Assembly: GCA_021731245.1 (NCBI GenBank)
Contig: JAKFXT010000010.1
Coordinates: 1-32,075 of the forward strand
Source: Patescibacteria group bacterium
GTDB taxonomy: Bacteria; Patescibacteriota; Minisyncoccia; Phycocordibacterales; JAKFXT01
Reading direction: 5' to 3'
DNA: 32,075 bases
Shown here: piece after piece, positions 7,599 to 23,936 of the stretch
How positions within the stretch are numbered: position 1 is the stretch's first letter
Layout of the letters: each line of letters begins with the position of its first letter
The notes under the pieces: model-generated
Seen by the model: only the letters and a program-made list of their open reading frames with translations
Told to the model about the DNA's origin: nothing
The model's database searches: none
Translations under genes and position numbers: made by a program

Positions 7599-7717
7599 CT
7601 ATTGTCTGTTCCGCGCAAAGCTGGGAGACTTGGACTCAATTTCCTTATGGGAAATTCCGGGGAAGTTCCCCGAACTTCCCTTCTCGTCCAACTTGAACCA
7701 AAATTACCGCTTTCAGA
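7599..7717 (-). pseudogene. Partial duplicate of tRNA-Gln 3' half plus trailer, interrupted by a 57-bp palindromic insert (7638-7694)
   Basis: 23-bp identity 7695-7717 to 7761-7783; GACTTGGACTC shared; trailer similar to tRNA-Gln trailer. Confidence 0.7.
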
Positions 7718-7743
7718 AGCCTTATTGTCTATTTCGTGCAGAG

Positions 7744-7814
7744 CTGCGGGACTTGGACTCGAACCAAAATTACCGCTTTCAGAGAGCGGCGTCCTACCAT
7801 TAGACGATCCCGCA
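7744..7814 (-). tRNA. tRNA-Gln(CTG)
   Basis: Cloverleaf: TGCGGGA/TCCCGCA acceptor, CCGCT-CTCTGAA-AGCGG anticodon arm, TTTGG-TTCGAGT-CCAAG T arm. Confidence 0.9.
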
Positions 7815-7963
7815 GCTCTGCACATAATAACGACAATTTTTCAAAGAAAACCAGATGGAAAACAAAACTGTTTGTTTTCCATTCCCACCACTTCGATGAT
7901 CTCCCAGCTTTGCGCACAACACAATAGCTGTAAGATTAGCTAAAAAATAGAATAAAGTAAAAG

Positions 7964-21955: not shown

Positions 21956-22414
21956 TTATCCGCAAACAGCCTCATCAGTACCACCCAAAGTAGAGCTGAC
22001 TGTAGTAGTTGACTGCCCAGAAGCATCAACACACTGAAAGCTAGTGCTTGGAGTTTTCAAAGGCACCTCTATTGCCCAAGCAATTCCGGTGTCATGGCAT
22101 GTAGCAACGCCCGCACTTCCTGCTCCAGTAGTAAAATTAGTTGGCGTTATTATACCAGAAGCTTGTTTTGCAGCATTAATAGCATTAACTACTACCGAGT
22201 TAGTGCAGACACCAACATATGAATTATTACCGGGACCATCATAGAATATTTCTGCTTGTGAACGAATATTAGCTAAATTTGATTTAATAGCTGCGTTCGC
22301 TCCTTTATCACGAGCTGTGTTAAGACTAGCCAATACAACTGAAGAGAGAATACCGATAATGGCGATAACCACCAATAGTTCGATAAGTGTAAAACCTCTT
22401 TTTAAACTATTCAT
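21956..22414 (-). CDS. Type IV pilin (PilA-like), paralog A
   Basis: [51 protein letters not shown]. Confidence 0.9.
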   Translation of the reverse strand: MNSLKRGFTLIELLVVIAIIGILSSVVLASLNTARDKGANAAIKSNLANIRSQAEIFYDGPGNNSYVGVCTNSVVVNAINAAKQASGIITPTNFTTGAGSAGVATCHDTGIAWAIEVPLKTPSTSFQCVDASGQSTTTVSSTLGGTDEAVCG

Positions 22415-22456
22415 ATTTAAAAAATTATATCACGAAAAAATTATAATAAAAATAAA

Positions 22457-22906
22457 CTATCCACACACATAATCATTCGGGTCTAAGAAATTAGTAGAGC
22501 CAGTAAGAGTCGTGGACTGCCCAGTATAATCAATACAATGAACTGAATCAGCCAAACCTCTTAAGGGAATCTCTATTGCCCATTCAATAACATTTTCATG
22601 ACAAACAGCAACGGAACCAGTACTAGGTGAACTGTTAGAAAGACTAGTTGCACTTGTTATACCAGCGGCCTGCTTGGCAGCATTAATCGCGTTTTGAACA
22701 TTAGGATTCACGCAAAGATTATTATAGCTACCTGTATTATCATAAATTATTGCCGCTTGTGAGCGAATCCCTGCTAAATTTTCCTTTACATTAGCGTCGG
22801 CCGCCTTATTTCTTGCTTGATTTAAAGAAGCAAGAACAACAGTAGAAAGTATTCCTATAATTGCTATAACTACCAGTAATTCTATCAACGTAAACCCTTT
22901 TCTCAT
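22457..22906 (-). CDS. Type IV pilin (PilA-like), paralog B
   Basis: [36 protein letters not shown]. Confidence 0.9.
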
Positions 22907-22916
22907 ATTAATTTAT

Positions 22917-23360
22917 CTACTGACAAATAGGGCCTGTTGGTCTTGCGGCAAGTACAACGGCCTTACTAGTATCATCTACACACCAAAACTCAGCTGGATT
23001 TGTTTTAAGAGGAATAGCTATTGCGTATTGAGTAGCTGTTATTTGACAAGTAGCGTCTCCTCCACTTTTTGCTACAGCATCCGCTATACCGAGTCGAATG
23101 CTATCTTGTTCTAATATAGTTCCAGCTGTGTTCAAGCCACTACAAGTATCAGTTGCAATGTCTGCTCCAGTATTATAAGTGTTGCCCATATCATCATATT
23201 TAGCTGCCGCAGAAGCACGCAAACCTTCTAGGTTTGATTTAATATTGGCATCAGCCCCTTTTTCTCTGGCTGTATTTAATGAAGCTAAAACAATTGAGGA
23301 GAGGATGCCGATTATCGCAATAACTACCAAAAGTTCTATTAATGTGAAGCCTTTTTTCAT
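22917..23360 (-). CDS. Type IV pilin (PilA-like), paralog C
   Basis: [36 protein letters not shown]. Confidence 0.9.
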   Translation of the reverse strand: MKKGFTLIELLVVIAIIGILSSIVLASLNTAREKGADANIKSNLEGLRASAAAKYDDMGNTYNTGADIATDTCSGLNTAGTILEQDSIRLGIADAVAKSGGDATCQITATQYAIAIPLKTNPAEFWCVDDTSKAVVLAARPTGPICQ

Positions 23361-23411
23361 ATAAAAATATAAATATATTAACTATTTAATATTTACAATA
23401 TATCACTTTTT

Positions 23412-23449
23412 AAACAAAAAATCCCCACAGTATGGGGATTTCTTGTTTT
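23412..23449 (-). terminator. Terminator-like hairpin after paralog D
   Basis: AATCCCCA-CAGTA-TGGGGATT within A/T tracts. Confidence 0.75.
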
Positions 23450-23468
23450 CAAAAATTAGTAACAGATA

Positions 23469-23936
23469 TTATCCGCAAACAGCGTCACTGGCACCTAAGA
23501 CAACTGGGGTAGTCGTAGACTGACCAGTTGAGTCAACGCATTGCATCAACGGAACACCTGCCGTTGAGCCTTTCAAAGGAACTTCTACAGCCCAAGTTCC
23601 AGCAGGAGTAGCGGGAACGTGACAAGTAGCCAGTATTCCACTTCCAGCTGTTGCAAAAGCAACAACCGTAGCCGCACTTATACCTGAAGCCTGCTTAGCA
23701 GCATTTATAGCATTGATAACGGTTGCGTTTGTACACACAGCGTCATAATTACCCGCGGTGTCGTAAACAATTTCTGCTTGGGCACGAATGTTCGCTAAGT
23801 TTGACTTAATAGCTGCGTTCGCTCCTTTATCACGAGCTGTGTTAAGACTAGCCAATACAACTGAAGAGAGAATACCGATGATGGCGATAACCACCAATAG
23901 TTCGATAAGTGTAAAACCTTTTTGTGTTTTTATCAT
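23469..23936 (-). CDS. Type IV pilin (PilA-like), paralog D
   Basis: [51 protein letters not shown]. Confidence 0.9.
   Translation of the reverse strand: MIKTQKGFTLIELLVVIAIIGILSSVVLASLNTARDKGANAAIKSNLANIRAQAEIVYDTAGNYDAVCTNATVINAINAAKQASGISAATVVAFATAGSGILATCHVPATPAGTWAVEVPLKGSTAGVPLMQCVDSTGQSTTTPVVLGASDAVCG

Follow-up and report, generated by a model that had tools for sequence, protein, structure and literature searches.

A tRNA-Gln gene enclosed by an opened second tRNA-Gln, and structured repeats beside tRNA genes of Patescibacteria

tRNA genes are usually regarded as passive landing sites for mobile DNA. We found a different arrangement in a 32,075-nucleotide stretch from the genome of a very small, uncultivated member of the Patescibacteria (contig JAKFXT010000010.1 of assembly GCA_021731245.1, positions 1 to 32,075; hereafter the window, whose numbering is used throughout): behind pyrG, one opened outer tRNA-Gln encloses a whole inner tRNA-Gln(CTG) on the minus strand, as seen from sequence and alignment. 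The D-loop of the outer tRNA contains a structured repeat of about 90 bp and its T-loop a 57-bp insert. We directly observed this anatomy, the mutual pairing of the outer halves, homologous nested loci and empty sites in related genomes, and the dispersal of three repeat classes (I to III) beside tRNA genes. We consider it reasonably probable that two tRNA-Gln genes and two insertions make up the locus, with small structured elements in the D- and T-loops.

Several described systems resemble parts of this picture. Repetitive extragenic palindromic (REP) sequences and bacterial interspersed mosaic elements, with their Y1 transposases (RAYT), are likewise short dispersed palindromic repeats outside protein genes without an own protein, but the elements here are larger (80-150 bp), contain several hairpins and are built into copies of tRNA ends; REP/RAYT was rejected because Y1 transposases and elements are not linked. 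Miniature inverted-repeat transposable elements (MITEs) are also small, dispersed, polymorphic in presence and bordered by inverted-repeat arms. Here, however, the arms come from local tRNA or 5S sequence rather than from a fixed terminal inverted repeat, target-site duplications were not found, and no parent transposon was identified in a search confined to PF01797. Rickettsia palindromic elements are structured palindromic repeats inserted in genes of reduced genomes; the elements here are comparable in this description but differ in bearing tRNA-matched arms. Phage and integrative-element attachment sites in tRNAs share the 3'-end copy downstream of an intact gene, whereas at our loci only about 30-380 bp separate the gene from its copy, an integrase gene is missing there, many tRNA kinds are used, and 5' halves and 5S rRNA have been copied as well. 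Group I introns, known in tRNAs of the candidate phyla radiation (CPR; PMC8172020), also lie within a tRNA loop, but the sites here are D- and T-loops of partial copies, the inserts are too short and no intron model matched. A search against Rfam (4227 families) gave only tRNA and weak chance matches, and no group I intron core. TIGR-Tas arrays and IS110 bridge RNAs (PMC12045711) are comparable as structured RNAs, found in CPR among others, or as RNAs with two strands matching both target strands; here, by contrast, neither an array nor a box C/D-type repeat was recognised, and TIGR-Tas is left as a resemblance only.

Anatomy of the nested locus

The 5' half of the outer tRNA-Gln, comprising acceptor and D-arm, lies upstream of the inner gene (7916-7884), and the 3' half lies downstream of it (7723-7613). 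A first-pass annotation, made from the letters of the window, had described this second copy as a tandem duplicate of the tRNA-Gln 3' half and had overlooked the front half at 7916-7884. The copy is not in tandem: it is the back half of the outer tRNA, its front half lies upstream, and the intact gene is nested between them. The intact tRNA-Gln(CTG) itself had been recognised correctly (7743-7814, minus strand; ARAGORN, Rfam RF00005), and the reported 23-bp direct repeat (7695-7717 and 7761-7783) is exact, base for base. The outer halves pair with each other over 16 perfect bp (GCGCAAAGCTGGGAGA / TCTCCCAGCTTTGCGC), while none of 500 shuffles reached 12. Their acceptor stem (TGGGAGA/TCTCCCA) differs from that of the inner tRNA (TGCGGGA/TCCCGCA). 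Among mismatched pairs of tRNA and flank from the same genome, downstream tail copies of equal quality appeared in less than 0.5%, and the fold of the region as a whole has z = -10.6; the arrangement is thus beyond chance. The locus consists of the following features:

7917-7927, minus strand: leader CTATTGTGTTG ahead of the outer structure, similar to the leader of the inner gene (ATTGTC..) (sequence)
7900-7916, minus strand: outer tRNA-Gln 5' part, extended helix TGCGCAAAGC and acceptor 5' strand TGGGAGA (7900-7906), with its partner at 7613-7628 (16-bp complement; G025/G227 alignment)
7884-7901, minus strand: outer D-arm GATCATCGAAGTGGTGGG as far as the G18-G19 position, after which the class III element begins (motif search)
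7855-7882, minus strand: class III hairpin A (covariance model R3, match 7794-7886)
7838-7850, minus strand: class III hairpin B, TTTTCTTTGAAAA (R3 model, sequence)
7815-7837, minus strand: helix 5' strand ATTGTCGTTATTATGTGCAGAGC in place of class III hairpin C, bearing the inner tRNA, with its partner at 7724-7744 (pairing and compensatory changes)
7743-7814, minus strand: inner intact tRNA-Gln(CTG) (ARAGORN; Rfam RF00005, 59.8 bits)
7724-7744, minus strand: 3' strand GCTCTGCACGAAATAGACAAT of the helix bearing the inner tRNA (sequence, alignment)
7704-7723, minus strand: remnant of the outer anticodon arm, anticodon CTG kept (alignment)
7695-7703, minus strand: outer T-arm 5' strand and first T-loop bases TTTTGGTTC (sequence)
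7638-7694, minus strand: 57-bp T-loop insert (absent from G025 and G227; single copy in the genome)
7613-7637, minus strand: outer T-arm 3' strand, acceptor 3' strand TCTCCCA and extension GCTTTGCGC (sequence, alignment)
7599-7612, minus strand: outer trailer GGAACAGACAATAG, similar to the inner trailer (sequence)

With the inserts removed, the acceptor of the outer tRNA pairs, but in the window its D region is altered and its anticodon stem weak; the T-arm is intact in the related genomes G025 and G227. The stretch of about 20 bp from the inner tRNA to the outer anticodon remnant holds no plausible gene and no integrase.

The outer D-arm motif TCGAAGTGGTGGNNATGNAAANC was found in 5 of 297 genomes of the order, always at tRNA-Gln(CTG), and a reversed control pattern in none. 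G025 and G227 carry the full nested layout and G156 a variant of it, and in four of the five motif genomes (the window's own, G025, G227 and G156) the nested locus lies behind pyrG. Window, G025 and G227 align over their full length save for the 57-bp insert, which is present in the window only. Across these three genomes the outer acceptor strands covary as pairs (TGGGAGA/TCTCCCA, TGCGGGA/TCCCGCA and TGCTAGA/TCTAGCA, in this order), and so does the helix under the inner tRNA (ATTGTC/GACAAT, ATTCTC/GAGAAT and ATTTTC/GAAAAT). A second tRNA-Gln (TTG) of G156 is also nested, with the inner gene located where the outer tRNA would have its variable loop. The comparison with related loci for empty sites, which the first-pass annotation had suggested, was successful: G028 and G107, members of the genus of G227 and G156, contain a single plain tRNA-Gln 20-36 bp after pyrG, which is the empty site for the whole structure. 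The relatives are draft genomes and the loci were picked by similarity, so that these counts hold for the samples concerned.

Loop inserts and their relatives at other tRNA genes

The D-loop insert belongs to class III, a structured repeat of about 90 bp with three hairpins, according to both its covariance-model match and its position after G18-G19 of the D-loop copy. The model, R3, was built from ten inserts at loci beside Glu, Ser, Leu, Phe, Thr, Trp and Gln genes and at one locus without a detected tRNA, with the window excluded. Three of these ten sequences came from genomes with a related Gln locus, two of them being the G156 Gln loci, and R3 is therefore not fully independent of this locus family. 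In the window it matches 7794-7886 with 46.2 bits and a genome-wide E-value of 8.1e-8, which is rough, as are all E-values of our models R1 to R3, given few training sequences and short calibration. The modelled structure exceeds all of 500 shuffles and all slid versions in covariation. In contrast to multi-copy MITEs, the 57-bp insert is single-copy and R3 has this sole match in the genome, yet class III was detected in 92 of 397 genomes of the order. Among the 30 best R3 loci, a same-strand tRNA (Phe, Glu, Leu, Ile, Val, Ser, Gln, Thr and others) lay within 450 bp in 24, and 17 had a head or tail copy of that tRNA; the insert typically starts directly after the (T)GG of the D-loop. In the window, the helix of the inner tRNA occupies the place of the third hairpin seen in other class III copies.

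The 57-bp insert was confirmed exactly where it had been reported, at 7638-7694 in the T-loop between GGTTC and GAGTCC. It is an insertion, because the T-loop of the corresponding outer tRNA half is continuous in G025 and G227; this supports the earlier idea of a tRNA-derived copy invaded by a palindromic element. The accompanying suggestion of a REP/MITE-like element is unsupported for this sequence, as a genome-wide check revealed no further copy of the exact insert. Multiple copies are instead a property of the broader set of tRNA-loop inserts, in which the covariance model places the D-loop insert found here. Both hairpins of the 57-bp insert are present (AATTTCC-CATAA-GGAAATT at 7638-7656 and GGGAAGTTC-GGG-GAACTTCCC at 7660-7680) and cover 40 of the 57 bp. 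Its strand TTGGAC (7686-7691) is the complement of GTCCAA at 7630-7635, in the outer tail, and the insert therefore supplies its own T-stem strand. No direct duplication is visible at its borders, 7638 and 7694.

Classes I and II are structured cores in T-loops of partial tRNA copies. The 57-bp insert has the same layout, an anti-T-stem strand followed by two hairpins, but R1 (the class I model) has no match in the window at E<=0.01 and R2 none listed for the window's contig; judged from its sequence, the insert is therefore of the same architecture as these classes and not a proven member. The class I core reads TCGAA, hairpin, GTACTG, hairpin with GTA loop, CGA, and is located between the tRNA-copy strands; its structure reached a covariation score that none of 500 shuffles attained. 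R1 detected class I in 206 of 397 genomes. A pattern of 21 fixed bases gave at least 118 matches, and all titles naming a lineage were Patescibacteria of Parcubacteria type; of 82 pattern matches, 60 lay downstream of a same-strand tRNA or tmRNA of 17 kinds. Partial copies 3' of tRNA-Gln in other genomes have tails that repeat the local tRNA tail, often in 15 of 15 bases, though the tails differ among genomes. Class II (core CGGAGC..GCGAGGCGGGGTCGC..TGTGACC) was found in 47 of 380 genomes across the phylum. All these tallies undercount because strict filters were used. Classes I to III mostly adjoin tRNAs of many kinds.

Two narrower ideas were rejected. Tandem tail copies had suggested an integron-like cassette array at tRNA-Gln, but each locus has only one to three units and the element is also found at many other tRNAs. 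The occurrence of elements at many other tRNA kinds likewise rules out a phenomenon specific to tRNA-Gln.

The window's own genome (G000) contains 25 matches to the class II core; the genes that class II elements follow are those for tRNA-Cys, Val, Leu, Gly, Glu, Ala and Ser and, in two cases, 5S rRNA. Class I is represented by one element downstream of tRNA-His and by a second, in inverted orientation, within a 5S rRNA 5'-part copy. Downstream tail copies accompany 6 of the 37 tRNAs (p <= 0.007, mismatched-tRNA null) and are missing from 31. Two of the six, Ile(tat) and Ser(gga), are nested: head and tail copies surround the gene, and the outer acceptors pair mutually and are unlike the inner gene. 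At G000:C6:3230-3467 (L384), tRNA-Ile(tat) lies within a second tRNA-Ile that bears a class II element (outer GCGGGTA/TACCCGC, inner GCGCGTG/CACGCGC), and at G000:C11:19936-20296 (L411), tRNA-Ser(gga) lies within an outer tRNA-Ser (GGAGACG/CGTCTCC) with class II elements on both sides.

Further arrangements were noticed. At G000:C4:56900-57450 (L417), a 5S rRNA is located between partial 5S copies, with downstream 3'-part copies carrying two class II elements and an upstream 5'-part copy carrying an inverted class I core. Nearby, at G000:C4:57487-57593, a covariance model identified a 107-nt tRNA-like gene, about 30 nt longer than normal, whose extra sequence in the middle could be an intron or a long variable arm. 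Class II-like cores also occur away from tRNAs (G000:C3:7981, C4:37467, C10:17081 and C12:16684; L438, L435, L442 and L443), where the flanks are inverted repeats of local sequence, each different. At L393, L127 and L136, tRNA tail, terminator and inverted tail form a single long terminator-centred palindrome. At tRNA-Gly, 16 nt of the inverted tail match exactly, while the direct copy is decayed.

Origin and possible role of the structure

The order of events that we infer, like the mobility of the elements and their targeting of D- and T-loops, begins with an older tRNA-Gln(CTG) copy behind pyrG, whose D-loop a class III element would have split after G18-G19. Today's working tRNA-Gln sits at the tip of the third class III hairpin as if it had been carried or captured by the element; the functional gene would thus have been retained, and the older tRNA-Gln would have become a shell. 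In a later event, the T-loop of this shell may have received the 57-bp hairpin insert. Such elements would be non-autonomous, with structured RNA or single-stranded DNA as the probable form in which they are copied, and D- and T-loops of tRNAs would be their insertion targets. Their mobility is likely. The group of hairpin elements is widespread in Patescibacteria and apparently undescribed: tRNA-in-tRNA genes and these repeats had no description in the open-access literature searched, which is weak evidence, as subscription papers lay outside this search. More tentatively, we propose that Patescibacteria could harbour RNA-structured mobile elements of a large, undescribed class that live as parasites of tRNA genes, insert into D- and T-loops, copy gene ends so that the arms stay paired and are able to carry a replacement tRNA, which might give rise to nested tRNA genes.

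Several observations weigh against mobile elements. No transposase, integrase or reverse transcriptase could be tied to them, Y1 being the only enzyme family searched for; this Y1 transposase (PF01797) is absent from G000 and is present in five of ten element-rich and four of ten element-poor genomes. Phage and plasmid searches revealed no elements, and on viral contigs a loose pattern gave chance matches (0 of 80 confirmed by model) and the strict pattern none; a viral origin was rejected on the strength of these empty searches. The 57-bp insert lacks sequence relatives and a second copy in its own genome. Plain cut-and-paste insertion does not explain the complementary tRNA strands between the conserved hairpins of class I, and the compensatory evolution of the shell exceeds what a dead relic would need.

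This last point leads to the main rival, in which the outer shell is a functional RNA: a tRNA-like shell would hold the real tRNA on an extended stem, shell and head or tail copies would guide pre-tRNA processing, termination or turnover, and selection rather than transposition would maintain the match. We regard this as rather unlikely. In its favour, outer acceptor stems, T-stem and carrier helix covary as pairs, and the fold of the region is strong (z = -10.6). In 17 of 56 cases, a class I tail agrees with its own tRNA in at least 12 of 17 bases, as against 0.11% for tails of other isotypes, and class I folds are more stable on the tRNA strand in 93 of 117 comparisons, with 24 opposite. Against a selected function stand the patchy distribution inside one genus, where G028 and G107 have the plain gene, the many eroded or orphaned element copies and the majority of tRNAs in G000 that lack a tail copy; moreover, a hairpin resembling a terminator, as judged by eye, often separates tRNA and element.

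That tRNA-Gln was simply duplicated in tandem and then decayed, with replication template switching at palindromes as the source of the hairpins and no mobile element involved, appears improbable. tRNA duplicates are common, terminator-centred palindromes of anti-copy and copy (as at tRNA-Gly) resemble fold-back copying, and the 57 bp have no other copy. Yet this would leave three conserved cores recurring at many tRNA kinds in many genomes unaccounted for, of which the class III core had already weakened it; outer head and tail pair mutually and less well with the inner gene, and the order of 5' half, whole gene and 3' half is unexpected for a duplication. An assembly chimera of repeated tRNA-Gln sequences, conceivable in draft, probably metagenome-derived genomes whose contigs break at repeats, is hardly credible, since independent assemblies of several genomes show this layout, each with acceptor stems and hairpin sequences of its own, four of five behind pyrG.

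At this locus, a split outer tRNA still self-pairs around an inner tRNA gene, and its inserts belong to, or are similar in build to, a group of repeats present at a considerable part of the tRNA genes (six of 37 in G000 have clear tail copies) of bacteria whose genomes are among the smallest. Should the elements move, they would represent a mobile system adapted to tRNA loops without a known enzyme; as selected RNAs, they could reveal an unknown layer of tRNA processing. The elements can also mislead tRNA annotation and break assemblies of these genomes.

Elsewhere in the window, a type IV pilus gene cluster at 21956-23936 contains four tandem prepilin-like genes with near-identical N-terminal leaders.
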